From: Saccharomycopsis phalli | Lineage: Eukaryota; Ascomycota; Saccharomycetes; Ascoideales; Saccharomycopsidaceae | Assembly: GCA_020342235.1 (NCBI GenBank) | Contig: CP073212.1 | Coordinates: 806,001-870,000, forward strand | DNA length: 64,000 nt | Direction: 5' to 3' | Shown here: positions 2,794 to 54,948 of the stretch, piece by piece | Layout: every line of letters starts with the position of its first letter | Numbering within the stretch: the stretch's first letter is position 1 | Translations under genes and position numbers: made by a program | The notes under the pieces: model-generated | Told to the model about the DNA's origin: nothing | What the model saw: the letters and a program-made list of their open reading frames with translations, nothing else | The model's database searches: none

Positions 2794-3104
2794 TGTTGTG
2801 ATGATTAAAATCCGAGACGGCATTAGCTATCGGCATTGGTTAAACGGCATTAGCTAAACGGCATTAGCTATCGGCATTGGTTAAACGGCATTAGCTAAAC
2901 AGCATTAGCTAAACGGCATTACAATACGCCGTAGCTAAATGGCATTAGTTAAGCGGCATTACGACACGCCGTAGCTTATAAGAGGACTATAAATAAGAGG
3001 CAATGTGCCCACAATAAGTAAGTAGTTTACCTATAAGATAAATAAGTTAATACAAACAGTTTATCAAAGATGTCAGCTAAAGAAAGACTTTCCAAATTAC
3101 AACA
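2794..3104 (+). repeat. 5' LTR of copia element Z (311 bp)
   Basis: It starts TGTTGTGATG and ends TTACAACA. It has a TATA-like motif (ctataaataag, about 2987) and a run of acggcattagctaa-like units in its U3. The gag-pol start codon at 3070 lies inside it, so the reading frame crosses the LTR end, as in Ty1 and Ty5. Confidence 0.93.
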
Positions 3105-6100
3105 GGTTATGATGCATCCTGCAAGCGTCCTGCAGTTCCCCTCTGAATTAACATTGACTGGTCCAGAGACTTATCATGTTTGGATGAAGGAACTCGAGGA
3201 CTTTCTTTTTGGCTTCGGGGTCGGCTTACTTCAATACGCCGAAAATGGAACTCTGAGCATTGAACTGAACGATGTCTCGGACATTTCTTCTGCTTTCTTT
3301 ATTGAACAATTGGATAGCGTGTTTGGTATTATTCTCAAGGCAAGCATTAGCCAAGAGATTCGCGGAATTATTCGCTCCACGCACTCACGTCTGACTGCTA
3401 GAAATCAATTTTTGTTTCTTCAAGAGAAGTATGGTACTCTTCCACTCCCAGTGGCTCTCACTAGCGCTGGGATTCTGGAAGAAGCTACTAGGCCCACTGA
3501 GTTTGTTGACATCAGGGCAATGCTTCAACGCAAAAATTTGTTGGTTAGACAGCAATTGACTAAGGAGGCAATCATTGCATTATGGACTTTGGATAACATG
3601 ATGCAACTTGGTGTGCCATATCCGGTTATCTCAAGCGTCATTAAAGAGCTTGAACACAAGGGGATTACTACTAATACTCTTCTGTATCAGGTCTTGCATG
3701 AGATAACTGGATCGCATGAGTATGTTCGTCTGAACAGTCTTGCACTTTTGGGTCACGATTCTCTGTCTAAGAAGACGTCCAAACCTCGTCGCAAAGGTAA
3801 AAAGAAGGAAAAGCAACAACCATATGATGAAGAGTATCCTCAAGGTATGTTGGCTTATTCCTTCCTTGGACATCTGTTACTGATACCAACATTTCTTGAT
3901 ACTGGTGCCAGTGGACATTTCTTCTCTGACATTCGTTTCTTTCAAGACATGATTCCAGAGAATGGCTCTATTCTGGGTGTTGCTGGAAACCTTGCTATTG
4001 TTGGGAAAGGTACAGTTCGGATTTCTACTCCAGCTGGACCTTTTATTCTACACGATGTTGGTTACACTCCTAACGGTATTGCTAACCTTATCTCGGTTGG
4101 AAAAGCTTCTAATCATAAGTTAGAGTTTCTCTTCAATTATCAAGGTGCCACTATCCGCTCCACCAAGAAAATGTTTGCTCATCGAGATCCACTTTCAAAC
4201 CTTTACACTGTTTCATGTGAACCCTCTACTGTGATTCCGAAGCAGATTGCTTACAAGGCTGTCTCCTCTGGCCGTGATATTGATCGCTGGCATAGAAGAC
4301 TTGGCCATCCTAGCGCTTCTGTTATGGCCTCGCTTGTTAAGATCCATCCACTCTGGAAGGCTGGTCAGAGTTTACTGAGTTGTACCGGATGTATTACTGG
4401 TAAAACTGTTGACTCTGCTCCTAAAGAACGGACCACCAATCCTTCTCAGCCACTTGAGTTGGTCCATGCGGATCTTTGCGGGCCATTTAACTACGGATCC
4501 TACGATGCATCTCGGTATTTCTTGACTATTGTTGATGGCTATACAAAATGGACCACTGTTGTTTGCCTCAATAAGAAATCTGGATGCACTCAAGGTATCA
4601 TTAATTTTATTAATACCTCTGAAACAATGTTCCGCAGCAAGGGCTTGACCTACTGCGTTGGTACTCTCCGTACAGATAATGGAGGTGAGTTTGTGAGTGA
4701 AGAATTGACTAACTTCCTCACCAAGCGTGGCATCTCTCACGAAACCACGGTTCCCCATCATTCGTATCAAAATGGCGTTGCCGAACGAATGAACCGTACA
4801 CTTCAAGATAAAGCCCGCGCTCTTATGCTTCATACCAATGTTCCAGCTCAACTTTGGCCTGAAGCAATCAATACTGCTGTTTTTTTGGCTAATTGTACGC
4901 CATCACGCTCTATTGATTTTGATGTCCCATACAAACGATGGTATGGTCGCTCATTCAATTACAAATTTCTCCGAGAATTTGGATGTGTTGCTTATGCTAT
5001 TATTCCTAAGGCTCTCCGTCAAGGAAAGCTCGATGCTAAAGCCTCTCCTTGTGTCATGATTGGCTATGAATTGCAACGAAAAGCATATCGACTCTACGAC
5101 CCCAGAACAAATAAGGTTATTTGCGCTGCTCAAGCAATTTTTGAGGAGGATAATTTTTTTTATCCAACTGTGTCTCTGGCGCTGACTAGCACAATCAATC
5201 CTCCTCAAATTTCTGGGGTTGGCAATCCAAAGATTGGAGGGATTCATTCTCTACCTATGAATTCTCAGCCAGCTATTTCTATGACTAGAGATGAATTGAC
5301 AGTTGAATCCGAGCTTGACCCTCTGGACACCTCGTTGATAGTGGACGATAATGATACAGTATCTAAATCAGATGCATACGGTAATGCGTCTGAGTTGGCT
5401 GAAGATACTGGATCTGAGCTTGGTTACTTAAGGGATCATAATACTGCCTTAATTCGCACTGCTGCTCGCGAAATTGGAAATGAATTAGTTGTTTCTGGTT
5501 CATCCAAGTCAAATGAACTAATTATCGCTGACGCTTCAGATGCTGAAATTGACCTGACCTCTACTATTGATCTGATTGATGTGAGTAATCCTAATGGTTC
5601 TAATGAGAATCATCTTGTCCTTGATGATCCTCAACCAAGTCGTGAAGCCATCACGTACCCTGGATTTCTGCACACACCAGATGAGCCTGAGTCTCATGCG
5701 GATGAGATCAGTGACTCAGAGATACTCGACCCCAGACGGTTGGAATATATCCCTGGAACTACTGACCTGGTTGCAGGTAGTACTTCGGGATCACCCCAAC
5801 TTCAGGTTGTGAAATATGTATCACAATCTACTTCTGCGGAGTCTGATACTTCACTGTCGCTGGACAATCATGTTGCCCAACAAACATCACTGTCTCGTCC
5901 TGCTACTCCTCAAGCACAAGAAGTTCCTTATACCAATCCCATTGATTATAAGAACTCCAGTTCATCTCACAATCTCTTCAAGTATGATCGGTCTCCGTCA
6001 GACAAGCGGCCTATCCCATATCCAAGGGTTAAGCGCTATGATCCCAACTATAACCCGTTTTGTGGTGATATACCTCCGACTACTTTTGATAATCTTCCAA

Positions 6101-8055
6101 AGACACCTCAAAATGAGATTATCTATAAGTACTACGGAAAGCTGAAGATTTCACATACTAAAATCCCGGATTCTGATCTCAGATATCTGGAAGGTGTATC
6201 TACTTCAGCTGGTCCTCCTCCTCCGCCTCCGCCTCCACCTTCTGCTTTGCCGCAAAAGCGTCTTATCCGTCACAAAGGCTCCCAACCTAAGCCACTTTTT
6301 CCTGGTCCGCTTAGTTCTGATGAACATGATCCTACTACCCACCGTTCGTCTTCAGGGAGGGATAAGAAGCCTCGTGTCTCTGATATTGTCACAAATGGTT
6401 CTTCTAATGATGGTGTCCTGACATCTGTTAAGACGCCACTCTCAGATGACACAGATGAATCCGAAATGAATACGAATGGTGTGAATTATCCTGCTACTTG
6501 TCTTTTGGCTGCTAAGCATTCCCTTGAGAATGTACCTATGACATTTGATCAAGCTGTTACTTCTGATGATGCTTACTTATGGAAAGATGCTATTCAAAAG
6601 GAAATGGAAGCCCACTATGAGAATCAGACTTTTCTGTTAGTTCCACCTAAGCAAGGTCGTCGACCTATTACTTGCCGTTGGGTTTTTACAATTAAGAGTG
6701 ATGGTCAATACAAGGCACGACTTGTGGCTAGAGGTTTTACTCAGATTAAAGGGCTTGATTATGTGGAGACTTTTGCGCCTGTCATTAGGTATGCTTCTAT
6801 TCGAATCATGTTGTCCATTGCTGCAAGATATAGACTTACTATTCATCAGATGGATGTGAAAACGGCTTTTCTCAATGGTGATTTAAGGGAAGACCTTTAC
6901 ATGATTCAACCTGAAGGTTTTGTGGTCAAAGGAAAAGAAGATCATGTTCTTAAGCTTAATAAGTCGATTTATGGTTTGAAGCAAGCTCCAATGGTTTGGA
7001 ATGACAAAATCAATGAAGTGTTACATGTGATTGGTTTTAAGCAAAACTCTGCGGAGTATTGTTTGTATTCTAAGAAAAATGGGAATTTGTTTATTATGGT
7101 TGCACTTTATGTCGACGATCTTCTCATTGCTGGAAATAATCAGACTGAAATTGATAAGGTTAAAGCTCAATTGATGCTGCACTTTAAGATGAAAGACCTA
7201 GGAGTTGCTAGCAAGTTTCTTGGAATGAACATTAGTCAAGATAAGGCCTCAATACTGCTTTCTCTTCATGATTATGTTCACCTGATGCTAAAGGAGTATC
7301 AGATGGTAGATTGCAATCCTATCTACACACCAGCGGATCCTAATCAGGATCTAACTATAACTGATGACTCAAAGGACTGGGATGCCACAATGTATCGATC
7401 CTTGGTTGGCAAATTACTTTTTGCTGTTAATACGGTCCGGTTTGATATTGCTTATATTGTTGGTGTGTTATCAAGATATTTACAATCTCCAAAGGAAAAG
7501 CATTGGGTTGCTGCGAAGCGTGTTCTTAGATATTTGAAGGCAACAGAGGATATGAAAATTGTTTATTCCAGAAAGGATCATGGGAATTATCTTTTGGGAT
7601 ATTGTGATGCTGACTGGGCTACTGATAAGACGGAAAGAAAGTCAACTACTGGTTTCATGTTTAGGTATAGCGGTGGTGCTATTACTTGGAGATCTAGAAA
7701 ACAGTCGACTATTGCTTTGTCGACGGCAGAAGCCGAATACATGGCATTAACTGACGGTATTAAAGATGCTCTATGGTTACAGCAGGTGTTTGCAGAACTT
7801 GGTATCCCCTTGGCAAAATTGATAGTTCATGATGACAATGTGAGCTGCGTTAATATTGCTAAAAACCCAGTGTCACATGATCGAACTAAACATATTGATA
7901 TCAAGCATCACTTTATCAGGCATCATGTGAAAAATGGCAACATTGAACTACGACACCTAACTACTGACAAGATGCTAGCTGATATGCTTACCAAGGGATT
8001 ATCAAGAGAGCAATTTCAAAAACTTCGGATGCTGAGTGGTATGAGGAAATTTTAA
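3070..8055 (+). CDS. gag-pol polyprotein of copia element Z (1661 aa)
   Basis: A single reading frame encodes the whole polyprotein. The gag-like part covers residues 1-260 and ends in a Lys/Arg-rich stretch. Aspartic protease: DTGAS near residue 277. Integrase: a zinc region with WHRRLGHPS (about 405) and CTGC, then the catalytic triad in HADLCGPF (about 465), RTDNGGEF (about 534) and YQNGVAER (about 570). A Ser/Asp-rich spacer and a proline run lead to reverse transcriptase (CRWVFTIK near 1200, YVDD near 1346) and RNase H (CDADW near 1511, TAEAEYMAL). The start is the ATG inside the LTR; no upstream in-frame alternative looks better. Close homologue of X and related to Y. CTG codons may be read as Ser here. 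Confidence 0.93.
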   Translation: MSAKERLSKLQQVMMHPASVLQFPSELTLTGPETYHVWMKELEDFLFGFGVGLLQYAENGTLSIELNDVSDISSAFFIEQLDSVFGIILKASISQEIRGIIRSTHSRLTARNQFLFLQEKYGTLPLPVALTSAGILEEATRPTEFVDIRAMLQRKNLLVRQQLTKEAIIALWTLDNMMQLGVPYPVISSVIKELEHKGITTNTLLYQVLHEITGSHEYVRLNSLALLGHDSLSKKTSKPRRKGKKKEKQQPYDEEYPQGMLAYSFLGHLLLIPTFLDTGASGHFFSDIRFFQDMIPENGSILGVAGNLAIVGKGTVRISTPAGPFILHDVGYTPNGIANLISVGKASNHKLEFLFNYQGATIRSTKKMFAHRDPLSNLYTVSCEPSTVIPKQIAYKAVSSGRDIDRWHRRLGHPSASVMASLVKIHPLWKAGQSLLSCTGCITGKTVDSAPKERTTNPSQPLELVHADLCGPFNYGSYDASRYFLTIVDGYTKWTTVVCLNKKSGCTQGIINFINTSETMFRSKGLTYCVGTLRTDNGGEFVSEELTNFLTKRGISHETTVPHHSYQNGVAERMNRTLQDKARALMLHTNVPAQLWPEAINTAVFLANCTPSRSIDFDVPYKRWYGRSFNYKFLREFGCVAYAIIPKALRQGKLDAKASPCVMIGYELQRKAYRLYDPRTNKVICAAQAIFEEDNFFYPTVSLALTSTINPPQISGVGNPKIGGIHSLPMNSQPAISMTRDELTVESELDPLDTSLIVDDNDTVSKSDAYGNASELAEDTGSELGYLRDHNTALIRTAAREIGNELVVSGSSKSNELIIADASDAEIDLTSTIDLIDVSNPNGSNENHLVLDDPQPSREAITYPGFLHTPDEPESHADEISDSEILDPRRLEYIPGTTDLVAGSTSGSPQLQVVKYVSQSTSAESDTSLSLDNHVAQQTSLSRPATPQAQEVPYTNPIDYKNSSSSHNLFKYDRSPSDKRPIPYPRVKRYDPNYNPFCGDIPPTTFDNLPKTPQNEIIYKYYGKLKISHTKIPDSDLRYLEGVSTSAGPPPPPPPPPSALPQKRLIRHKGSQPKPLFPGPLSSDEHDPTTHRSSSGRDKKPRVSDIVTNGSSNDGVLTSVKTPLSDDTDESEMNTNGVNYPATCLLAAKHSLENVPMTFDQAVTSDDAYLWKDAIQKEMEAHYENQTFLLVPPKQGRRPITCRWVFTIKSDGQYKARLVARGFTQIKGLDYVETFAPVIRYASIRIMLSIAARYRLTIHQMDVKTAFLNGDLREDLYMIQPEGFVVKGKEDHVLKLNKSIYGLKQAPMVWNDKINEVLHVIGFKQNSAEYCLYSKKNGNLFIMVALYVDDLLIAGNNQTEIDKVKAQLMLHFKMKDLGVASKFLGMNISQDKASILLSLHDYVHLMLKEYQMVDCNPIYTPADPNQDLTITDDSKDWDATMYRSLVGKLLFAVNTVRFDIAYIVGVLSRYLQSPKEKHWVAAKRVLRYLKATEDMKIVYSRKDHGNYLLGYCDADWATDKTERKSTTGFMFRYSGGAITWRSRKQSTIALSTAEAEYMALTDGIKDALWLQQVFAELGIPLAKLIVHDDNVSCVNIAKNPVSHDRTKHIDIKHHFIRHHVKNGNIELRHLTTDKMLADMLTKGLSREQFQKLRMLSGMRKF
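3105..3112 (+). promoter_or_regulatory. Primer binding site of element Z (half-tRNA iMet type)
   Basis: GGTTATGA begins directly after the 5' LTR. It is complementary to the anticodon-loop side of initiator tRNA-Met (UCAUAACC). This is the primer mode known for Drosophila copia and yeast Ty5, in which a cleaved half tRNA primes minus-strand synthesis. The match is short (8 nt), so the tRNA assignment rests on family knowledge. Confidence 0.7.
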
Positions 8056-8377: not shown

Positions 8378-11300
8378 CCGATGATGATGAGAAGCATGCA
8401 TTATCGAAGAACAATCACTCATGGCTTGCATACCATGGGGTTGCGGAAAAGTATCCCACATATCTTGATAGTGGGGCATCGAGACACTTTATGGCAAACA
8501 AGGCGTTATTTGAATCTTTGGAAACCCATGATGATCGGATTAAAGGAATTGGGGGTCTGTTGGCAATTACGGCAAGAGGCAAAGTCAGTATGAACTTGCT
8601 TGGTGGAACTACTATACAATTGAAGGATGCATATTATACTCCAGGTGGAGAAGTTAATCTTGTGTCAGTTTCACGAGCAACTGACAATGGGGCGAAAATT
8701 TTATTTGATGGACAGAAGGCTATTGATTATGTTACAAAACAAGTAATTGCAGTCAAAGAACCGAATACAGGACTCTACAGGATACAGAATTCTGATAATG
8801 GAAGTGTTGCTTTTAAAGCCAAATCAGAAGATAATATTGAGACTTGGCATCGGCGATTAGGACATCCTGGTACTAATGTTATGGAAAGTATTAATAAAGA
8901 ACATGGTTTTTGGAAGAGTAGCGATCATATCACTATGTGTGGTGAATGTTCCGTAACTAAAACTACAGTAAGTATTCCAAAACTGCGAACTACACAGCCG
9001 ATACAACCACTCCAATTATTACATGTTGATGTGTGTGGACCATTTAATTATAAGTCCGTGAATGAATCCAAGTATTTTCTAACAGTGGTTGATGGTTATA
9101 CTAAATGGACTCATGTGGTATGCCTTAAGAAGAAATCAGAAAGTACAGAAGCATTGATTCAGTTTATTGTCAACAGTGAAAGACAGTTTCAGAGTAAAGG
9201 ATTACTGTTTTGTGCCGGTATTGTTAGAACTGATAATGGAGGAGAGTTTGTGAATAGAGCTCTCCATCAGTTCTTTATAACAAAGGGAATTAGTCATGAG
9301 TTGACAGTTCCTTATCATTCCTATCAGAATGGAGTGGCGGAACGCATGCATAGGACCATTCAAGAAAAGACGAGAGCTATGATGCATGCGAGTAATGTGC
9401 CAGTAGAACTCTGGCCAGAAGCAGTATTGACTGCAGTTTATCTCATTAATAGAAGTCCATCCAGAACTATTAATGGAGAGAGTCCATATCTTAGATGGAC
9501 TGGAAATAAACCTGATTTATCTATTCTTCGAGTATTTGGATGTGTTGCTTATGGCAATATTCCTATAGATATCCGAGCTGGAAAGTTTGCGGCCACAGGA
9601 ATTAAGTGTGTTATGCTAGGATATGAACCTTTAAGAAAGGCCTATAGGTTGTTTGATCCGACTAAGAGGATGATTGTAACTGCAACGCATGTTCGTTTTG
9701 ATGAGGGTAGCTACTATTATTCCGCTGTGTCTATGGCGCAAGAAGCATCTGCGGAAAACCCAATTGTGGGTATTGGAGGAACGGCCAAGGGTATTGGAAC
9801 TGTTCCAGTTAATAGCGATCGATCAATTAGTTCTAAGTTGAAGAAAGGAGAACACAAGGTTTCAGGGAGAATTGATCCAGATGATGACGTTGACTGTGAG
9901 AATGATGATGTGAATAATGAAAATGATAGTGTGACTGACGATGCAACAGCAGAGAAAATTATGGATCATGGTGCAGAAGATCCAACTAGTAATGATACTG
10001 AGGACAGTGTTGATACTATCTCAAGTACTACTACTGCTGATGAGGATAATTTAGCAGATATCAGTGATCATGGAGAAAATATATCTGGTGACGATATTGA
10101 GAGTATAAAGAACGACTCTGGGGACAGTGAAACTTCATCTACACCAGATGATGAAAGATCACAAGTATCAAGAAGTGAATCAGAATTTTCTAGTGACACT
10201 AATCGTCGTCTTGGGAGAACACCACGGAAACGTGTTATAAAACATAGTCTTGAAAATCTGAATAGTACATCTGATGATGGCCCCTCTAGTTCTGATGAAG
10301 CTGACCCTATGATACGTTCAGCTTCAAGGGGGGATAAGCGATATCGGGGATCAGATTTGGTAATTAACAGTGGAGATTCGGAATCAAGTAATGACTACAT
10401 ATCTTTAAAGCACAGAATTGTGGTATCTTCAGGATCGGAAGAATTAAGTGATGAGGGTATTAATCACGTGGCCACATGTTTAATGGCCGAAACTCAATTA
10501 CGCAATGACATACCAATAACTTTCACACAAGCAGTTCGAGGTAATGACAGCAAGAAATGGGAAAAAGCAATTATGGAAGAAATAGAAGCTCATAATCAGA
10601 ATGGAACTTTTACTTTAGTTCCCCCTCAAGGACGAAAGGCAATTTCATGTCGCTGGGTATTTACTATCAAGGATGATGGGAGATACAAAGCGAGATTAGT
10701 GGCAAGGGGATTCACACAAGTAAAAGGGATTGATTATACTGAAACGTTTGCACCAGTTATAAGATATGAATCAATAAGAATCATGTTATCAATTGCAGGA
10801 AACTATGGACTTACTATACATCAGATGGATGTGAAGACTGCGTTCCTTAATGGAGAATTACTGGAGGACATTTACATGGAACAACCAGAAGGGTTTGAGG
10901 TTAAAGGAAAAGAAGATTATGTGCTTAAACTTGGAAAATCACTATATGGTTTGAAACAGGCGCCACTCGTATGGAATAACAAGATTAATGGAGTATTACA
11001 AAAATTGGGATATAAGAATAATGCAGCCGAAAATTGTTTGTACTCAAAAAGAGAGGGCAGCAGTTTCATCATGATTGCACTTTATGTGGATGATATACTT
11101 ATTGCTGGAAATCAAGAGAACAGTATTCAAAAGGTCAAAGAACAACTAATGCAACACTTTAAAATGAAAGACTTGGGGTTGCTAAGAAATTTCTTGGAAT
11201 GAATATTGATCAAGATGGCAAAACTATTAAATTACTGTTGGATGATTATATTGAATCAATGTTATCAGAATTCCAGATGAAGGACGCAAAACCAGTTACA

Positions 11301-12040
11301 ATTCCTGCTGCCACAAATCAAGATCTTACAAATTGTGAAGACAATTCAAAACAGTGTAATGGTACAGAATACCGATCTTTAGTTGGAAAATTGTTATTTG
11401 CGGCAAATACTGTCCGGTTTGATATTGGATATATTGTTGGAGTTTTGTCTAGATATCTTAAGACTCCAAAAGAAATACACTGGACAGCAGCAAAGAGAGT
11501 AGTGAAATATTTGAAAGGAACAAAGGATCTAGGAATCACTTATACTAGAAACAAAGATGTGATCTTAAATGGTTTCTGTGATGCCGATTGGGCAACTGAT
11601 AAGATGACTAGAAAATCAACTACTGGGTACGTTTTTAAATTTGGTAATGGTGCAGTCACTTGGAAATCAAGGAAACAGTCAACGATTGCAATGTCTACTG
11701 CTGAGGCAGAATATATGGCTCTTGGAGATGGTGTTAAGGAAATGTTGTGGTTAAAGCTGGTATTTAAAGAGCTAGGCATAAAATTGAATGGAGCAGTCAT
11801 TCATGAGGATAATGCTAGCTGTATTAACATTGCTAAACATCCAGCATTACACAATAGAACAAAGCATATTGACATTAGACATCATTTTATTAGAAGTCAC
11901 ATTGCTTCAGGAGAAATGGAACTCAAGCATCTTGGAACTGAGGAGATGCTAGCAGATATGTTTACTAAGGCTTTGTCTGAGAGACAATTCAAGAAACTAA
12001 GATTTATGTGTGGAATGAGAAGTCTTCAGTTAAGAGAGGG

Positions 12041-12424
12041 TGTTGAAAGTGCTGAAAGTGTTGAAGGAGTTAATGCATGGTGAAATACATCATGCATGAT
12101 AAATAAGCTGGTATTGAGAAATAGCAATCCTTCAGTACCATGATATCATACTGTTTATGGTATATTAAGAGTATGAGGTCATAGTATTAGCAATCTAATA
12201 AAGTTATCAGGTCATACTAATAGTGAACTGATAATAATATGAGGTCATACTAATAATGATGTCATGAGATAAAGATAACTGAAGGCATCTCAGAAAGAAT
12301 ATAAATAGGACAGGAAATAGCTAGTATAGTAACAAGAATAAGAATATCTACAATAGTAAGATATGGAAGCCATTGAGAGAAACGCTAGCTTACGACATTT
12401 CAACATGCATTAGATCTTTCAACA
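12041..12424 (+). repeat. 3' LTR of copia element Y (384 bp)
   Basis: It begins TGTTGAAAG after a purine tract (aagagaggg) and ends with the exact reverse complement CTTTCAACA. It has a TATA-like motif (gaatataaatagg, about 12297). Two further decayed copies of its right half occur at 29264-29372 and 45470-45598. The 174 bp between it and tRNA-Gly hold no gene that I can see. Confidence 0.8.
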
Positions 12425-15793: not shown

Positions 15794-16176
15794 TGTAACG
15801 ACAAAATATCGTTTACATTAGACACGTGGGATACACGTGTTGGTCACATGGGATGACACGTGAGCATCACATGCCAGCGTGCGGATAAGGGATGATGCCT
15901 ATGGTGACGAGAAAGGAAGTCAAAGCACTGCCGTGTACAGAGATGAATATGGAAGAATCCCGAAAGAGGATATAAGGCAAACCTTATTGAAGGAAGTAAC
16001 CCTGTCTCTGGAATAATATAAATACAGAAGGAAATAGCTAATAAATCATCAAGTAACTTAGAGATATATTCTGAGATAACTTTACAACTTATATCTTGTA
16101 GTTAACAATACTTCATATTGTTAATTAGCCAGTTTATAAGTGATTGTAACGATACCATCAGGATTTTATCGTTACA
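15794..16176 (+). repeat. 5' LTR of Ty3 element (383 bp)
   Basis: It runs from TGTAACGACAAAATATCG to TTTTATCGTTACA. A TATA-like aataatataaatacag is at about 16013. Each end of the LTR is itself a near-perfect hairpin built from TGTAACGA and its complement. Confidence 0.95.
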
Positions 16177-16218: not shown

Positions 16219-19200
16219 GTGATTATGTCAGATATTATGGAGGGTTCCTCTCACGCCTCATCAGGAAATGATGACGGACTCCCTAATTATTTCCAAATGA
16301 TTGACCCTTTCACAGGGACTGGATCAGTTGATGATGCTCTTCAATTCCGAGCTGCATGTAACCGGGCTATCAAGCCTGGTTGGACTGATTTTGACAAGAT
16401 TAATACCATAGGGTTTAGGACGAAAGGACCAGCTAGAAAATGGTATGACCTGTATTGGGAATCTAGAGGACAGGAGCATACCATCCAAGAGTTTTGGAAG
16501 GAATTTGAAAGTCGGTTCGTCAGCTCCAGACACGAATGGAAGGCTCGTAAGGAGTTTAGGGAAATGAAGTTCTTCGGCCCAGCCGGTGATCTTGTTGAGT
16601 TTCAAGATAGATTCCGTATTCTTAGCGCCCTTGTTAGAAACTTACCTCTAACTGCTGACGAAGTATTTCGAGATTATTACATTATGACACTTGACCGCGA
16701 GCTTGAGATTAAAGTCTTGGAATCTAACCCTGAAACCTTGAACGAAGCTATGGAACGCTCATCTCAATTCCATGAAAATAGACGGGCATTATTTGTTGGA
16801 AGACGCGATACAAGAAAAAGACGCTCGAACTTTGCTGATTCTCAAAGACTGGCACCTGCTCAGAAGGATAACGGTTCTAAAAATAATCAAAATGGAAGAT
16901 CAAGACTGTATACTCCGTGTGACATTTGCAACAAAAGAGGTCATCGATCAGAGGAATGCTGGTTTGCTAAAGGAAAGGCATCGAACATAAATGCCATTAA
17001 TGATGATGATGTTTCAGACGTCGATAAAGCAGAATCTGGAGAGACAAAAAAATGGTTAGGGTCTATTAGTGTTGAAAGTCCACAAGTAGACCCAGATATT
17101 TCTGCCTTAGGTTGGGAACCTAGGGGTCTGACCTTTGTTTATGTAACCTTAAAATATAAAGGAGAAGTGATTAAAGCGTTGATTGATACTGGCGCGACAC
17201 TTTCTTGCATTAACAGACGGATCATCCAGAAAATTGACTTTCCTGTAAGAAAGACTACTACTATTCATAATCTTACTGACGCTGCTGGTCGGATTATTGA
17301 ACGAGTCCTGGAGTGGGCTCTGGGCACCTTTAAAGTTGAAGGAGAGGTACCAATAAAAGATGTCACTCTCTCTTTTCTTGTGTCCGAAGAATGTGCTCAC
17401 GAGTGTATTATAGGGCTCCCCACTATTATGCAGTATTGGGATTTATTTGCCCACATTATAAGTAAACAGAAAGAAAAATTAGAGGTTATTCAACCCATTG
17501 CAGCCAGAGAAGCGAATCGGTTATTAAAGAGTCACCAACATGAAGTTTTTACCATTTTGGTGACCCCGGCTCCTGGACTGGAAGAAAAGGATCTGCCTTC
17601 CGTATCAACAATCGAAACAGAAACAGAAACAGAAGTGAATTCTTTATTAATTATTGAGCACGAGGAGAGTTTTCCGGTTAATCCGAAGTACCCCTCGGCG
17701 AACGAACCCACATCTCCCGCTTATGGTCAGAGAACGAGTGAGAATGGGCCGTATTATAAAACCACGTACGACGCCGTGCCACCTCAAAAGTCACCTTCAC
17801 AATATAAGAAGAGAAAGACTACCAACACAGAAATATTGACCGTACGATCGTCCCGTGATGAGCACAGTTACCAACCGACAGACCTGAGCAAAATCAGGCG
17901 ACAAGTGTTGGAAACGTATAAGAATGTAATAAGAGAGGATATGAGGACAGATGGTGTTAGATTCCAAAAAGTGACTCACCACATCCATATTATCCCCGGA
18001 AGTAAGCCCAGTTATAAGAGGCCGTATAGATTGAGCCCTCAAAACAGAGAAGAGCTTAAACAACAAATAAAAGAACTCATTGATACTAAGAAAATCTTTC
18101 CGACGTCATCACCTTTTGGTGCACCTGTTTTGTTTGTTAAAAAAAAAGATGGCAGCAAACGTCTATGTGTCGACTATAGGAGCTTGAACGATATTACGGT
18201 TAAATCACGTTTCCCCTTACCTAGAATTGAGGACTTGTTGGACCACATTCATGGGGCCACTGTGTTCTCTAAATTGGATTTGGTTAGTGGTTACCATCAA
18301 TTACTGATTCACCCACCAGATCGACACAAGACAGCCATGGTCACTCCATTTGGCCAGTATGGTTGGAATGTGATGCCATTTGGCCTTTGTAATGCGCCAG
18401 CGACTTTCCAAGCTGTTATGAATGAACTCCTTATACCCCTCGAGCAGTTTTGTGTTGTTTATATGGATGATATTCTAATCTTTTCTCCAGATACGGAGTC
18501 TCACGCAACCCACATCAAGAAAGTCATGGAAGTTTTGGAAAAAGCTCATTTGGTGGTCAGTACTAAGAAGTCAGAGTTTTATTTAAAACAAGTCTGTTTC
18601 CTTGGTCATACGATTTCGGCTGAAGGTATCACGGTAACTGATGAAAAGACTAAAGATGTTGAAAACGCCATCGTAAGGACACCTGCACAAGCAAGGTCCT
18701 TTGTGGGGTTGGCCGGATACTATCGCCGTTTCATTCCAGACTTCTCCAAAATCTCGAAACCCCTCAACGATTATTTTAATCACAAACCGGTTGCGTGGGT
18801 AGAAGTAGAAGATTCCATTCGAATACTTAAGTACAAGTTGACACATGCCCCCGTGTTGAGAATTTTTGATCCAGACTTAATCTGCAGGGTAACTTCAGAC
18901 GCATCGAAAAATCACATTGGAGCTGTGCTTGAGCAATATGATAACAATGGGAAAATCTTGGGAGTTATTGGATACATGTCGAAGACATTACAGGGCGCTC
19001 AGTTAAACTATGACGTAAGAGAAAAGGAATTACTTGCTATCATTGAAGCTTTCAAACAATGGAGACATTATCTTACTATGCCATTTGAAGTGTATACTGA
19101 CCATCACTCTCTCACATACCTCAATTCGGTCAAAAATGAAAACAATCAACGCTTATTGCGCTGGCAACACTTTTTAGCGGATTTTAACTTTGTCATTCGG

Positions 19201-20865
19201 TATAAACCGGGGTATACAAATAAGGCCGCTGATGCACTTAGCAGAAGTGAGCTCTCTACCGCCGTTGCCACCCTAGGAGAATTAGAGGATGATGAAGAAA
19301 TGGCAGATACAGGTTTAGATATTGGTCCGGAAGAGGAACGATTGATTCCCCCGAACTTACGTGAAACAGAGTTAATGAGACTTCCACCAATTAGCAAAGA
19401 TGACTATTTTGGTGATGATTACTTTAAAAAGATTTATCAAATCCTTGACGGAGACATTGAATGCCCGCGAGAGAGAATGAGTTTAATTAATAAATTTAAA
19501 TTTGCGACCTTTGAAGACCAAAAATATATTGCTTTCCAAACATCGGCCAACAATGTGGTCAGATTGTGTATTCCGGACTGCGGCTTTAGACACAGGTTAC
19601 TTAAAACCGTGCACGAGTCTCTTGGAAGTCTTCATATGGGAATGATAAAAATGATATATCAAATTCAAGACCTTCATCTTTACTGGCCAAATATGTGGAA
19701 AACCATACGACAATATGTTAACCGTTGCAATAAGTGCACCCAAGTGAAAGCGTCTAATCAACACCCAGCCGGCATATTACGCCCGCTAGAGGTTCCACAG
19801 GCTCGTTGGACTGATTTATCAATTGACTTCATAACTGGATTCCAGGCCTCAGGACCTGAGAAATATGACTCAATCATGGTCGTGGTCGACCGTCTAACGA
19901 AGCGGACAATACTAATCGCTAATCACAAGAAGGACAAAACGGAAGACATAGCCAAGCTATTTTATAAAAGAGTAATTTGTGAACATGGTCTCCCTACGTC
20001 CATCGTGTCTGATCAAGATAAAGTCTTTACGAGTGAGCTTTGGGCAACCCTTACTAAATTAATGAGAATTAAACGTTGCCTCTCAACTACTGCTCACCCT
20101 CAGTCAGATGGACAGACGGAACGAATGAATAGAGAATTAATCAAACTTATGACGTTGCACGAGATAACTCAGAGAACAGAATGGAGTGAAGCCCTTCCAA
20201 CCGTCCAATTTGCTTACAACAGTCAATTCCAAGAGAGTATCAAAACTACTCCTTTCTTTGCTGACCTTGGCTATCACCCGCGCTATTGGTCAGTCGTGAC
20301 AGACATCAACATTGCACATTACCTCAACTCTCCTTCCCGCCTTACAGCATTACAGTTTGTGGAACGACAATCAAAGATCGTTTCTGATATTCAATTGAGA
20401 ATGGCAGAAGCCCAGGCAGAACAAAGTATACATTTTAATCGCAGACGAACTCCTATTTCATATGAATTAGGGGAACAGGTACTTATTCACAGGAAACTCA
20501 TCAAGGATGCTGCTCATCGGCAAGCGAAATTTGTTCCTACTTATTTTGGTCCCTTTCCAATCACCAAGACGTCCGATGTCAACGCTTATAGAGTACGGAT
20601 ATCTCCTCTGAAAACAATTAAGGTAAATGTCAAGAACATGAGGAAATACTACCCTATGGAGGTTGCTAAACCAGGAAGCAAGTTTGACACGGAACGACAC
20701 AAAATTATTGCGGTGTTGGAAACAGGGTACCCTTGCACAGTTGTCCTTTATCAGGGACACTCAGGAGCAGTAACAATTCCTACCAGATGGGTACGCTCTC
20801 TTTCAGAAGAACATCGTCAGCGCCTAACCAGAGAATTACAAGCTGCCAGATCAGAAGGAAACTAA
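16219..20865 (+). CDS. Ty3/gypsy gag-pol polyprotein (1548 aa)
   Basis: One frame encodes capsid-like gag (1-230) with a CCHC knuckle CDICNKRGHRSEEC near residue 233, protease (IDTGATLS, about 321), reverse transcriptase (LCVDYRSLN about 650; YMDD about 748), RNase H (TSDASKNHIG about 893) and integrase. Integrase has an HHCC zinc region (H near 1135, CNKC near 1172) and a catalytic triad in DLSIDFITG (about 1202), VSDQDKVF (about 1264) and SDGQTERMNRE (about 1300). The last about 120 residues are basic and Trp-containing, in the place where some relatives have a chromodomain; I cannot confirm one. ATG at 16219 or 16225 could be the start. Gag and pol are in one frame, unlike S. cerevisiae Ty3. 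Confidence 0.93.
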   Translation: MIMSDIMEGSSHASSGNDDGLPNYFQMIDPFTGTGSVDDALQFRAACNRAIKPGWTDFDKINTIGFRTKGPARKWYDLYWESRGQEHTIQEFWKEFESRFVSSRHEWKARKEFREMKFFGPAGDLVEFQDRFRILSALVRNLPLTADEVFRDYYIMTLDRELEIKVLESNPETLNEAMERSSQFHENRRALFVGRRDTRKRRSNFADSQRLAPAQKDNGSKNNQNGRSRLYTPCDICNKRGHRSEECWFAKGKASNINAINDDDVSDVDKAESGETKKWLGSISVESPQVDPDISALGWEPRGLTFVYVTLKYKGEVIKALIDTGATLSCINRRIIQKIDFPVRKTTTIHNLTDAAGRIIERVLEWALGTFKVEGEVPIKDVTLSFLVSEECAHECIIGLPTIMQYWDLFAHIISKQKEKLEVIQPIAAREANRLLKSHQHEVFTILVTPAPGLEEKDLPSVSTIETETETEVNSLLIIEHEESFPVNPKYPSANEPTSPAYGQRTSENGPYYKTTYDAVPPQKSPSQYKKRKTTNTEILTVRSSRDEHSYQPTDLSKIRRQVLETYKNVIREDMRTDGVRFQKVTHHIHIIPGSKPSYKRPYRLSPQNREELKQQIKELIDTKKIFPTSSPFGAPVLFVKKKDGSKRLCVDYRSLNDITVKSRFPLPRIEDLLDHIHGATVFSKLDLVSGYHQLLIHPPDRHKTAMVTPFGQYGWNVMPFGLCNAPATFQAVMNELLIPLEQFCVVYMDDILIFSPDTESHATHIKKVMEVLEKAHLVVSTKKSEFYLKQVCFLGHTISAEGITVTDEKTKDVENAIVRTPAQARSFVGLAGYYRRFIPDFSKISKPLNDYFNHKPVAWVEVEDSIRILKYKLTHAPVLRIFDPDLICRVTSDASKNHIGAVLEQYDNNGKILGVIGYMSKTLQGAQLNYDVREKELLAIIEAFKQWRHYLTMPFEVYTDHHSLTYLNSVKNENNQRLLRWQHFLADFNFVIRYKPGYTNKAADALSRSELSTAVATLGELEDDEEMADTGLDIGPEEERLIPPNLRETELMRLPPISKDDYFGDDYFKKIYQILDGDIECPRERMSLINKFKFATFEDQKYIAFQTSANNVVRLCIPDCGFRHRLLKTVHESLGSLHMGMIKMIYQIQDLHLYWPNMWKTIRQYVNRCNKCTQVKASNQHPAGILRPLEVPQARWTDLSIDFITGFQASGPEKYDSIMVVVDRLTKRTILIANHKKDKTEDIAKLFYKRVICEHGLPTSIVSDQDKVFTSELWATLTKLMRIKRCLSTTAHPQSDGQTERMNRELIKLMTLHEITQRTEWSEALPTVQFAYNSQFQESIKTTPFFADLGYHPRYWSVVTDINIAHYLNSPSRLTALQFVERQSKIVSDIQLRMAEAQAEQSIHFNRRRTPISYELGEQVLIHRKLIKDAAHRQAKFVPTYFGPFPITKTSDVNAYRVRISPLKTIKVNVKNMRKYYPMEVAKPGSKFDTERHKIIAVLETGYPCTVVLYQGHSGAVTIPTRWVRSLSEEHRQRLTRELQAARSEGN

Positions 20866-20901: not shown

Positions 20902-21284
20902 TGTAACGACAAAATATCGTTTACATTAGACACGTGGGATACACGTGTTGGTCACATGGGATGACACGTGAGCATCACATGCCAGCGTGCGGATAAGGGA
21001 TGATGCCTATGGTGACGAGAAAGGAAGTCAAAGCACTGCCGTGTACAGAGATGAATATGGAAGAATCCCGAAAGAGGATATAAGGCAAACCTTATTGAAG
21101 GAAGTAACCCTGTCTCTGGAATAATATAAATACAGAAGGAAATAGCTAATAAATCATCAAGTAACTTAGAGATATATTCTGAGATAACTTTACAACTTAT
21201 ATCTTGTAGTTAACAATACTTCATACTGTTAATTAGCCAGTTTATAAGTGATTGTAACGATACCATCAGGATTTTATCGTTACA
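20902..21284 (+). repeat. 3' LTR of Ty3 element (383 bp)
   Basis: Same as the 5' LTR except one T-to-C difference in the sequence TTCATACTG near the right end. It is followed by ACTAA and then tRNA-Thr. Confidence 0.95.
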
Positions 21285-21297
21285 ACTAAATATAGAA

Positions 21298-21370
21298 GCC
21301 CTTATGGCCAAGTTGGTAAGGCGCCACACTAGTAATGTGGCGATCCTCAGTTCGAATCTGAGTGAGGGCA
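21298..21370 (+). tRNA. tRNA-Thr (anticodon AGU)
   Basis: The cloverleaf is complete. Acceptor GCCCTTA pairs with TGAGGGC. The D-arm carries box A TGGCCAAGTTGG. The anticodon stem is CCACA/TGTGG with loop CTAGTAA. The T-arm carries GTTCGAATC. The discriminator is A. There is no intron. The terminator TTTTT is at 21373-21377. The upstream 16 bp have been hit by at least four retroelement insertions. Confidence 0.96.
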
Positions 21371-24306: not shown

Positions 24307-24468
24307 TAGTATTGTGCTACTGTATTGTGCTACTGTATTGTGCTACTGTATTGTGCTACTGTATTGTGCTACTGTATTGTGCTACTGTATTGTGCTACTG
24401 TATTGTGCTACTGTATTGTGCTACTGTATTGTGCTACTGTATTGTGCTACTGTATTGTACTATAGTAT
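24307..24468. repeat. Minisatellite, 13-bp unit (gtattgtgctact)n
   Basis: About twelve head-to-tail copies of gtattgtgctact with almost no variation; the last units drift (gtattgtactatag). It lies in the spacer between BYE1 and MRN1. Open frames here are repeat artefacts. Confidence 0.95.
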
Positions 24469-24654
24469 TGTTTGAATTTGTTTGTAAGCATTTGGTCGAT
24501 TGAGAATGGAAGGATGTTTATTCCTGTGAGGTATTGATTTAGAGAGCTTTGTGAGATTTGAATTCTGTAGCGGGAGGTGTATTGTAGATGATAATAATGA
24601 GACGGTTTACAGTTGGCATGTCATGGACTGATGTGCAGCATTGGGTAGTGTTGA

Positions 24655-26480: not shown

Positions 26481-27257
26481 GGCGGCTTGAATTGCCATGG
26501 ATGTTCCATGGTGCCATTGGACATGACATTTAGAGGTGTGTTTATGAATAGATGCTTTGATTCGTGTAGATTGGTGTGTCATGTAATTATACTTTTGTAG
26601 GTGTGAGTTGATACAATTGATGCAGTTGATGGCTATAGAATGTTGATATGGTGATATAGTTGGTTATACTGTATGTTGATATAGTGATATAGTTGGTTAT
26701 ACTGTATGTTGATATAGTGATATAGTTGGTTATACTGTATGTTGATATAGTGATATAGTTGGTTATACTGTATGTTGATATAGTGATATAGTTGGTTATA
26801 CTGTATGTTGATTATGCTATTCATCACACTCCTTTCATTCTCTTATTCTCATTCTCATTCTCATGCTCTTTCACTATTTCTCTCACTATTTCTCTCACTA
26901 TTTCTCTCACTATTTCTCTCACTATTTCTCTCACTATTTCTCTCACTATTTCTCTCACTATTTCTCATTCACTCCTTTTACAACCATTGTCATTGCTTAT
27001 TGACGCTCTTTATTCAGCCTGTCCTAAACGGCATCTCACATTTCCAAGAAAATCAGTCGCTTGCAAACTCTCGTCATCCATTATCTACCAAAGACTTGGG
27101 AAATTGTTGGTGTATAGTGCTTGTAGTGTCCTTATGATGTTGATACAGCTCCTACATTACAGTTGTTCCTTCCTGTGAAGTTGAAAACCAAATACACTCA
27201 ATTCAATCATCACCGCTCAAATTATTCAATCAAAAGCAACAAAAATCATTGACAATA
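26481..27257. repeat. MRN1 downstream region: 33-bp and 12-bp minisatellites
   Basis: Positions 26640-26812 hold about five copies of a 33-bp unit (atgttgatatagtgatatag plus ttggttatactgt). Positions 26872-26964 hold eight copies of tctctcactatt. No gene is supported; the ORFs here are repeat translations. Confidence 0.92.
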
Positions 27258-36977: not shown

Positions 36978-38462
36978 ATGTTCAACAAAACCAAAAGAAT
37001 ACGTACTTTGGGCCGGCGCAACTTCGAAGACTCGTCACTGAAGCTTCTTGCGACCCAGGAGAATCTCGATGGCCAGTACAATACGCGACTTTCGATGTAT
37101 AAAACCGCACCAGCCAGCGAGATATCGTTGGAGCAGTTTGAGAGCTGGGCGATTGATCGGGCCAAGATTTTGATTGAAATCGAGAGTTATTTGGCACGGT
37201 CGCGGACGGTGAAGGAGATTGGAACCGATCTCAAGCCGTTGTTGGCCAAATACATGCCATTGACGGGGGTAAATGGCAAGAATTCGCAGCAGGCAGTCCA
37301 GGAAAGAGTCAAGGACCACTACTCGCACTTTATTTTGCGACTCGCGTTTTGCAAGAGCTCGGAGCTACGGGAACGGTTTGTCAAGGCTGAGACGATTTTG
37401 TTCAAGGTGAGGTTTGAGCAAATGACGAGGCAAGAGCAAAGCGTGTTTTTGGAGCTGTGCGGGCTTGAGTTTTCCAAGGTGGACGAGCAGGAAAAAGAAT
37501 CAATCAAAGAAGACCTCTACGACGCGAGTTACGCCCAAATCCTCTTTGCCCTTAAACACGCACGTGATGGTCACGTGACCCAGCAGATGGTGCAGCATCA
37601 GTTTGGGAGCGAGTCGTACATCAAGGTGAAGTTCCAGAAAGTCGCGGAATTGGTTGCGACGCGGTCGGTGTATGTGCGATGCGGGTTGTGTTACCTTACC
37701 CAGGGCCAATTGGGCCATGTGGTGACAAATGAGTTTACAAAGAGTCTTGAGGCCGGGTTGTTGAAGACGGCACAGGGACTTGGGAGATTGGATGAGGACG
37801 ACCGGCTCTTGCCGTTGCTTTCACATTTGAGCAGCCGGTATTCTGGAGTGGAGTACGAGCCAGTAGCCACGAACAACGGCGAGATTTCGTGTGACAGTGT
37901 GACCAGCGACGAGTTTATGCGGCATTATCCGTTGGAAATCCGGTATATTTTGCGGACGTTGATGCGGGAGCACCATCTCAAGTACATTGCGCGGACGCAG
38001 CTCACGTTATTTCTCAAAGGGATTGGGCTAGGGGTCGATGAAGCGGTGAAGTTTTTTGGCAAGTGGTTCTGCATGGGGGGAAAAATGACCACCGAGTCGT
38101 TCAACAAGGAGTACAAATACAATATCCGCCACTGCTACGGTCTAGAGGGCTCGCGGATCAACTACAAGCCCTGGGATTATACCATGATTCTTCGCCAGGC
38201 ACGTCCGGGAAAGGGCGAGTGTCATGGGTTGGTGTACCGGGATTTGAAGCCAGAGGTTCTTGAGGGCGAATTGCGGGCTGCTGGTGTGGAGGAGGGCGAG
38301 ATCCGGGCGATTTTGCAGGACTGTGAGGCTGGGAATTATTTGGTTGCTGTGACGCGTGCGTTTGAGAGTATACATCGGGACAAGTTGCAGCAGCATGGGA
38401 AGTTTGAGACGAGTGTGATGAGCCATCCTAATTTGTGGTATGATCGACTGAGGCAGTTGTGA
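36978..38462 (+). CDS. PRI2: DNA primase large subunit lacking the Fe-S ligands
   Basis: 494 aa. Large subunit of the DNA polymerase alpha-primase complex, which makes the RNA primers of replication. Start at MFNKTKRIRTLGRRNF, as in S. cerevisiae Pri2 (MFRQSKRRIASRKNF as I recall it); the frame is open further upstream, but the ATG at 36882 lies in the repeat promoter. The N domain keeps FESWAIDRAKILIEIES, YSHFILRLAFC and LRERFVKAETILFKVRF. The C domain keeps HHLKYIARTQLTLFLKGIG, KEYKYNIRHCYGLEGSRINY, KPWD and HPNLWYDRLRQL. The four cysteines that hold the [4Fe-4S] cluster in S. cerevisiae (336, 417, 434, 474) are here E320, Y401, L418 and V458, with identical spacing (81, 17, 40). The two charge-transfer tyrosines (395/397) remain (Y379, Y381). 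A minisatellite begins 4 bp after the stop. A diverged paralogue is possible, but the frame is intact. Confidence 0.9.
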   Translation: MFNKTKRIRTLGRRNFEDSSLKLLATQENLDGQYNTRLSMYKTAPASEISLEQFESWAIDRAKILIEIESYLARSRTVKEIGTDLKPLLAKYMPLTGVNGKNSQQAVQERVKDHYSHFILRLAFCKSSELRERFVKAETILFKVRFEQMTRQEQSVFLELCGLEFSKVDEQEKESIKEDLYDASYAQILFALKHARDGHVTQQMVQHQFGSESYIKVKFQKVAELVATRSVYVRCGLCYLTQGQLGHVVTNEFTKSLEAGLLKTAQGLGRLDEDDRLLPLLSHLSSRYSGVEYEPVATNNGEISCDSVTSDEFMRHYPLEIRYILRTLMREHHLKYIARTQLTLFLKGIGLGVDEAVKFFGKWFCMGGKMTTESFNKEYKYNIRHCYGLEGSRINYKPWDYTMILRQARPGKGECHGLVYRDLKPEVLEGELRAAGVEEGEIRAILQDCEAGNYLVAVTRAFESIHRDKLQQHGKFETSVMSHPNLWYDRLRQL

Positions 38463-38465
38463 GGG

Positions 38466-38805
38466 GAAATTGGATAGAGACAAGAGCAATTGGATAGAGA
38501 CAAGAGCAATTGGATAGAGACAAGAGCAATTGGATAGAGACAAGAGCAATTGGATAGAGACAAGAGCAATTGGATAGAGACAAGAGCAATTGGATAGAGA
38601 CAAGAGACAATTGGATAGAGACAAGAGCAATTGGATAGAGACAAGAGACAATTGGATAGAGACAAGAGCAATTGGATAGAGACAAGAGACAATTGGATAG
38701 AGACAAGAGCAATTGGATAGAGACAAGAGACAATTGGATAGAGACAAGAGCAATTGGATAGAGACAAGAGACAATTGGATAGAGACAAGAGACAATTGGA
38801 TTAGG
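38466..38805. repeat. Minisatellite, 20/21-bp unit (aattggatagagacaagag)
   Basis: About seventeen units that alternate between agagc and agagac endings, starting directly behind the PRI2 stop codon. The higher-order alternation (20- and 21-bp units) implies unequal exchange or slippage of dimers. Three long minus-strand frames here are repeat translations. Confidence 0.95.
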
Positions 38806-53060: not shown

Positions 53061-54948
53061 GAAATGAGATGGTGAGATAAAATTGACTATTAAATAGGTG
53101 TAAATTGCAGTTGAGTGAGTTTAAATGAGATGCTCTTGAACAGCTGGGGTGATTTGATTCATAATTGACACGACATTTTGTATGAGACGTGGTTTATTAA
53201 TAATTAGGTGTAAATTCTGAATCAGGTATTGATCTAGTTTCAGATGTGAACTGCAACGGAGGTTTATTTGACCAAAGATGTAGTGGCTGGATGAATGTTG
53301 GTCTTTCCAGTATTTCTATTCCCAGTTTTAATAAGCACCTTTTTATAAGCACCTTTTTATAATCACCTTTTTATAATCACCTTTTTATAATCACCTCCCC
53401 CCAGTTGGCACTCATTTTGACCGTTATTTTGTTTAGTTACATACACTTTGGCCAGTTGGCAACGAATCCCTTTAATTTAATTAATATTTATCCAAGGCTA
53501 TAGCCATACTAGGCTCCCAGAGGAGACTTGTGCTTTACCGTCTATAACCAAGGACGGCTATGTAGTCGTCGAAAGAAAACTCTGCAACAGAGAAAAACTT
53601 TCAACCAGATCTTGTAAATATGTAGATAATGAGCATTGTATGGGCAATGAGCTTCGCCTAGATCTTTAGAGATGGCTTTAGCCACCCCTCCCAAGGTACT
53701 AACTCGGTAGCCACGAATCAATTGTTTCAATAATACAATACTATACATAGCATTTTAAAGTTAATCAGTATAAACTGTTTATTTATTTTTGAATCCATTT
53801 CAACTAGTCATTTCTCATCACGTCCAGCACAGCATTGTACAACCTTGGCTTGTTTTCGCATGGCATATGTATCAAATTGGGATATACATCATCCGTCCTT
53901 TTACACCAGCAAGCCAAACAATACTCAATGACAAACTGCCCAATGTCCAGTTTGGATAATGACACAGTTGGCTGAATTCACATGACGGTATTCACAACAT
54001 GATATACCCTGTAGGTCACGAGTCAATTGGTCCCGGGCTTATTCATACCCCTGCCATGTGGTTTCGGAAGGATGGAGATTTCTTGGAAACATCCATACTA
54101 GTTGGATCTGATATTGTAAACCTGGTCAATTGAGCTTTCCACGAAACAAGACAAAAGATAAAAGATAAAAGACAAAAGATAAAAGATAAAAGACAAAAGA
54201 TAAAAGATAAAAGATAAAAGATAAAAGATAAAAGATAAAAGACTGATTCAAATGGTGTATGAATATGATCCGTCCATGTACTGGTGCATGGGAGGTGAAA
54301 TTTCACTCTAGTGTCAAATCGAGTCTGCTGATTGACATGGGGTGTATAAATTAATGGAGTGTATAAATTAATGGAGTGTATAAATTAATGGAGTGTATAA
54401 ATTAATGGAGTGTATAGATTAATGTATTGGTGAATTAAGATGTGGAGTGAATATATGTATGAATCATGTATGAGGAAGAGGAGTAAAGAACGGAGTAAAC
54501 GGAGTAGAGAACGGAGTAAACGGAGTAGAGAACGGAGTAAACGGAGTAGAGAACGGAGTAAATAATTGCAGTAAACAATCCATGAACAATCAAATAGATA
54601 CAATCCATAGATACAATCCATAGATACAATCCATGAACAATACATAAACAATACATGTATAATCCAATATACGTACATTATTAAATACATCAACATTTCA
54701 TAATCCAATACGTAAATTTCTAAATACATCAATATTTCATAATCCAATACGTACATTTCTAAATACATCAACATTTCATAATCCAATACTTACATTTCTA
54801 AATACATCAACATTTCATAATCCAATATTTACATTTCTAAATACATCAACATTTCATCATCCAATACGTACATTTCATAGACCCATTTCATAGACCCACT
54901 ACACCGACCCACTACACCGTACGCAATACATGATCAATACATTAACAC
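53061..54948. other. Intergenic region CDC10-GAPDH, repeat-rich
   Basis: No gene is supported. It contains (aatcacctttttat)5 at 53330-53395, an R1 copy at 53485-53710, (gataaaa)n at 54150-54240, (ggagtgtataaattaat)5 at 54335-54425, (acggagtaaacggagtagag)4 at 54480-54560, and about five 39-bp units (catttctaaatacatcaac core) at 54660-54880. Confidence 0.85.
53485..53710 (+). repeat. R1 dispersed repeat
   Basis: One of the best plus-orientation copies: head ctatagccatactaggctcc, hairpin ccgtctataaccaaggacgg, then gtagtcgtcgaaagaaaact and tail gggcaatgagcttcgcctag. Confidence 0.85.

Follow-up and report, generated by a model that had tools for sequence, protein, structure and literature searches.

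Can a eukaryotic primase do its work without the iron-sulfur cluster of its large subunit? The question is raised by a PRI2 gene in a window of 64,000 nucleotides (the whole stretch of DNA analysed here), the product of which carries other residues at all four positions where the cysteines of S. cerevisiae Pri2 bind [4Fe-4S]. Our preferred answer, to which we assign a probability of about 0.7, is that the gene encodes the replicative large subunit (PriL) of an ascomycete yeast, that this subunit naturally lacks the cluster, that it has retained its job and that a hydrophobic plug holds the subdomains of its C-terminal domain (CTD), two in number, together at their seam. Slightly less firmly, we consider it probable that chromosome replication in a whole eukaryotic lineage relies on a Pol alpha-primase that has no Fe-S cluster at all in the large subunit, the plug having taken over the architectural role. 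Among open-licence papers we found no report of a natural clusterless replicative PriL in a eukaryote.

The PRI2 gene and its surroundings

The 494-residue open reading frame (Table 1) contains no stops and no frameshifts, and ends in the conserved RQL motif, as in the alignment with the yeast protein. Among relatives with solved structures, S. cerevisiae Pri2 (8b9a) ranked first, with 408 bits, and vertebrate PriL chains came next. The phmmer alignment with S. cerevisiae Pri2 takes in residues 33-494 and so covers both the N-terminal domain (NTD) and the CTD, while the Pfam family DNA_primase_lrg (PF04104) matches residues 214-488 with 210.7 bits. Significant similarity over both domains, the mark of the DNA primase large subunit family (PRI2/PriL, PF04104), is therefore present. 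In MAFFT alignments the identity over the aligned part was 46% with S. cerevisiae Pri2 and 35% with the two vertebrate PriL chains, which we take to be those of human and Xenopus. The GC3 of the gene, 0.67, falls within the range of its neighbours (0.58-0.79), implying that the gene is native. The NTD also contains a CxxC motif, formed by C235 and C238 (VRCGLCY, 37680-37691), with no counterpart in the PriL sequences of yeast and vertebrates.

Table 1. Positions of the PRI2 gene and of the residues discussed in the text (window coordinates).
Feature	Position	Strand	Basis
PRI2, DNA primase large subunit gene	36978..38462	+	ATG 36978 to stop 38462, 494 aa, single frame; yeast Pri2, 3.1e-121; PF04104, 3.3e-62
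E320 (GAA), at ligand C336 of yeast Pri2	37935..37937	+	phmmer and MAFFT alignments
R339 = yeast R355 / human R306, primer 5'-triphosphate contact, kept	37992..37994	+	alignment; role from PMC2852410, PMC5333051
Y379-K380-Y381, with Y379 and Y381 = yeast Y395 and Y397, kept	38112..38120	+	alignment
H385 = yeast H401 (mutation lethal), kept	38130..38132	+	alignment; role from PMC2852410
Y401 (TAT), at ligand C417 of yeast Pri2	38178..38180	+	phmmer and MAFFT alignments
L418 (TTG), at ligand C434 of yeast Pri2	38229..38231	+	phmmer and MAFFT alignments
V419 and Y420, altered shell residues (yeast P435, F436)	38232..38237	+	alignment; shell list of PMC2852410
L455, altered shell residue (yeast T471), bigger and hydrophobic	38340..38342	+	alignment
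V458 (GTG), at ligand C474 of yeast Pri2	38349..38351	+	phmmer and MAFFT alignments
W487, altered shell residue (yeast Y503), bigger	38436..38438	+	alignment

By its gene content the window looks like that of an ascomycete yeast. The neighbours include genes for a mitochondrial Ssc1-type HSP70, an acyl-CoA oxidase, a septin, GAPDH, a Brix protein, YL1/Vps72 and an SRP1/TIP1 cell-wall protein, together with Ty1/copia- and Ty3-type elements; gene density is low for a yeast, and Rfam returned two tRNAs only across the window. Three Ty1/copia-type elements or fragments, with a Ty5-like Gag, follow one another at 509-2002, 3070-8055 and 8491-12083. The one at 509-2002 is an almost exact repeat of the end of the 3070-8055 element, and the one at 8491-12083 is in two frames, split at about 11200. 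A Ty3/gypsy-type polyprotein of 1546 aa occupies a single open frame at 16225-20865; repeats of CACATGGGATACACGTGAGCAT with identical consensus flank it at 15823-15873 and 20931-20981 and are possibly parts of LTRs, and a tRNA-Thr lies near this element at 21298.

Short-period tandem arrays are abundant in the intergenic regions throughout the window (111 rows from Tandem Repeats Finder), for example at 24309-24471, 26640-26812 and 54659-54876. A near-perfect array of about 16 copies of AATTGGATAGAGACAAGAGC occupies 38468-38801, and in its second half units of 20 and 21 bases alternate, giving a 41-base period with a 99% match. Because its first base lies 6 past the PRI2 stop, this array is probably located in the 3' UTR or terminator region of the gene.

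Lost ligands in a conserved C-terminal domain

The preliminary description, made from the sequence alone, had pointed to a well-conserved CTD in which E320, Y401, L418 and V458 replace the four ligands at unaltered spacing. Both statements hold: YPLEI, PWDY, HGLVY, VAVTRAF, GLEGSRINYKPWD and HHLKYIARTQLTLFLKGIG were all found, and phmmer and MAFFT agree on the four replacements, with no gap relative to yeast between the first and the last ligand position and a spacing of 81/17/40 residues in both proteins. The interval that it gave, 37935-38351, runs exactly from the first base of the GAA codon to the last base of the GTG codon, and the yeast ligand numbers that it used (C336, C417, C434 and C474) are those given in PMC4348247 and PMC2852410, in agreement with the PDB sequence. 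The same four cysteines are conserved in Leishmania (PMC13401365) and in an Asgard PriL (PMC12770985). Our protein has none of the cysteines at yeast positions 336, 417, 434 and 474 that characterize a [4Fe-4S]-binding PriL-CTD. Judged from its sequence, it is a PriL by descent and falls outside that class.

Converting TGT or TGC to GAA, TAT, TTG and GTG takes at least 3+1+2+3 = 9 base changes, which excludes a sequencing or read error. An altered genetic code was considered as the source of the loss and rejected, since these four codons cannot all encode cysteine; by eye, CTG codons stand at leucine-like positions, so nothing suggests that CUG has been reassigned. Metal ligands are expected to be the last residues that a protein loses. 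Here, 65 CTD columns are invariant in yeast and the two vertebrate sequences, and 47 of them are kept; all four cysteines are among the 18 lost, an outcome with a probability of 0.0045 if losses were random.

Outside the ligands, the domain has been retained. When the cysteines are set aside, 47 of the 61 invariant CTD columns are kept (77%), as are 58 of 74 in the NTD (78%), implying that decay of the CTD has not outpaced that of the NTD, to which Pri1 and Pol1 bind. We also compared the 13 functional CTD positions named by Sauguet et al., ten of which are identical to yeast; the changes are R351 to K, K390 to S and N402 to C. In addition to the kept residues in Table 1, K347 (yeast K363), Y396 (yeast Y412), H333, K377 and N395 are unchanged, and the conserved primer and template contacts expected of the PriL family are present in the CTD. 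The preliminary description had remarked that the charge-transfer tyrosines equivalent to Y395 and Y397 are still there, and the alignment bears this out. However, these tyrosines have also been proposed as nucleic-acid contacts (PMC2852410), so their retention alone is no pointer to charge transfer. Identity to yeast is 34% in the small C-terminal subdomain (yeast 434-510) against 52% in the larger one, and the lower value could reflect relaxed constraint. Because most of the invariant columns and of the residues of known role are retained, the product nevertheless looks like a working subunit rather than a relic.

The cluster pocket and a possible hydrophobic plug

The yeast cluster lies between CTD subdomains 321-433 and 434-512, is held by two ligands of each and sets how they are oriented to one another; it is shielded by a shell consisting of P334, L335, I420, L421, P435, F436, T471, P500 and Y503 (PMC2852410). 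Five of these nine shell residues are unchanged in our protein and four are altered (P435V, F436Y, T471L and Y503W). Over the four ligand and nine shell positions together, the net gain in side-chain volume is about 320 cubic angstroms, which was reached in 1.1% of cases when 13 CTD positions were drawn at random 200,000 times (P = 0.011); with the comparison confined to substituted positions, P = 0.015. At the same positions, where comparable, the change is -26 cubic angstroms in human and +1 in Xenopus. Most of the gain comes from the ligand replacements (205 cubic angstroms), the 116 contributed by the shell alone not being significant (P = 0.17). An AlphaFold2 model made from the single sequence, with no alignment, had a pLDDT of 46.5 for the CTD and 43.6 for the whole protein, too poor for a fold search or for distances.

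Going by these substitutions, the equivalent of the cluster-shielding pocket of yeast looks filled, and the most economical mechanism, we infer, is a hydrophobic plug at the subdomain seam. Y401, L418, V458, V419, L455 and W487 would occupy the space vacated by the cluster, so that the seam would be held by this plug instead of by [4Fe-4S]. Counting against this explanation is E320, which places a potentially charged side chain at a previously buried position. The larger subdomain is the one that holds the template together with the primer's 5' end and its triphosphate. Since its contact residues are kept, it should still permit initiation, the counting of primer length and hand-off to Pol alpha. 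If this is right, the protein would be free of iron, would fold stably, would be the sole PRI2 product of its genome and would support normal priming.

Work on other primases bears on whether the cluster can be dispensed with. S. cerevisiae carrying C336A, C417A or C474A singly grows normally; C434A is temperature-sensitive with an unstable protein, and the triple mutant C336A/C417A/C474A is alive at the permissive temperature, being likewise temperature-sensitive with an unstable protein (PMC4348247). The defect of apo-Pri2 in these mutants is thus largely one of stability, the very defect that a filled pocket would cure. Sulfolobus primase synthesizes primers without its Fe-S domain if it is supplied with PriX in a fusion (PMC5700102). 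The larger CTD subdomain has relatives in PriX, which is functional without a cluster, and in the PriCT domains found in mobile elements (PMC5862659). A cluster-free route therefore exists in principle, and the preliminary description was too strong in treating the cluster as essential for eukaryotic primase, given the viable yeast triple mutant and the archaeal priming.

Alternative explanations and known systems

The preliminary description had left the choice between a cluster-free primase and a specialized paralogue. The sequence speaks for a functional protein that lacks the canonical cluster: its frame is intact, the NTD and the CTD are equally conserved outside the ligands, the contacts are kept and the pocket looks refilled. 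Nevertheless, the product could be a specialized or neofunctionalized paralogue, with a canonical, cluster-bearing PRI2 elsewhere in the genome performing essential replication. All four otherwise conserved ligands would be lost most easily after a duplication, and divergence is greatest in the C-terminal subdomain; but the NTD and the nucleic-acid-binding residues are kept as well as would be expected of a working subunit, and a duplicated PRI2 is, to our knowledge, unusual in yeasts. We therefore regard a paralogue as unlikely, though it is the alternative that deserves most weight.

Much less probable is a metal site that has moved, with C365, C386, C415 and C449 ligating either a cluster or zinc away from the original position. 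There are indeed five cysteines in the CTD (C305, C365, C386, C415 and C449), of which only C449 is present in yeast (as C465), and C415 stands three residues ahead of the lost C434 position. Against this, the CTD has no CxxC-like motif, bulky residues fill the lost cluster site, and the yeast equivalent of C386, N402, contacts K363 beside the DNA-binding loop, away from the inter-subdomain seam (PMC2852410). A pseudogene, an assembly error or a contaminating sequence seems, if anything, marginally more improbable still. We have a single sequence only, which leaves some room for such an origin; yet the frame is open as far as the RQL motif, the ligand changes affect four codons that lie apart from one another while their surroundings are conserved, and GC3 matches that of the neighbouring genes. 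A working, naturally clusterless PriL thus remains our preferred reading.

What is at stake is the purpose of the cluster. Since 2017 (O'Brien et al. and the comments on that study, cited in PMC6298731; PMC5700102) there has been an argument over its role in primase, which some see as that of a redox switch controlling DNA binding and hand-off and others as that of a structural staple. If our reading is true, eukaryotic priming would have no intrinsic need of the cluster or of redox switching by way of it. Such a Pri2, clusterless by nature, would offer a ready-made test: should it support replication, the redox switch would be dispensable, and the protein would reveal which residues are able to replace the staple. 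It would also imply that a replication factor can escape cytosolic Fe-S assembly and oxidative damage to its cluster.

Collections of viral and of prokaryote genomes, scanned with alignments of the whole protein and of the CTD, yielded no relatives; tblastn of phages and plasmids gave no real match (one chance match had 10% coverage), and a PDB search with an approximate archaeal fragment returned none. Parallels come from known proteins. The clusterless MutY glycosylases, mentioned in PMC11078426, belong to a family of DNA enzymes in which the Fe-S cluster is otherwise conserved but some members lack its four cysteine ligands; their fold is unrelated and they are repair rather than replication enzymes, so the parallel is limited to the process. 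A cluster-free relative of PriL-CTD that supports initiation is PriX of Sulfolobus solfataricus (PMC5700102). It is, however, a separate small subunit without the PriL NTD and works beside a PriL that has the cluster domain, whereas in our case the full-length PriL, NTD included, is itself without the ligands. Human PRIM2 (p58) shares 35% identity with our protein and the equivalents of R306, N348 and H351, but has all four cysteine ligands. The nearest known counterpart is S. cerevisiae Pri2 (8b9a, 3lgb), with homology over the full length, 46% identity, the same domain order and R355, K363, H401, Y395, Y397 and Y412 in common; where its C336, C417, C434 and C474 bind [4Fe-4S], our protein has E, Y, L and V, together with four changed residues in the surrounding shell.
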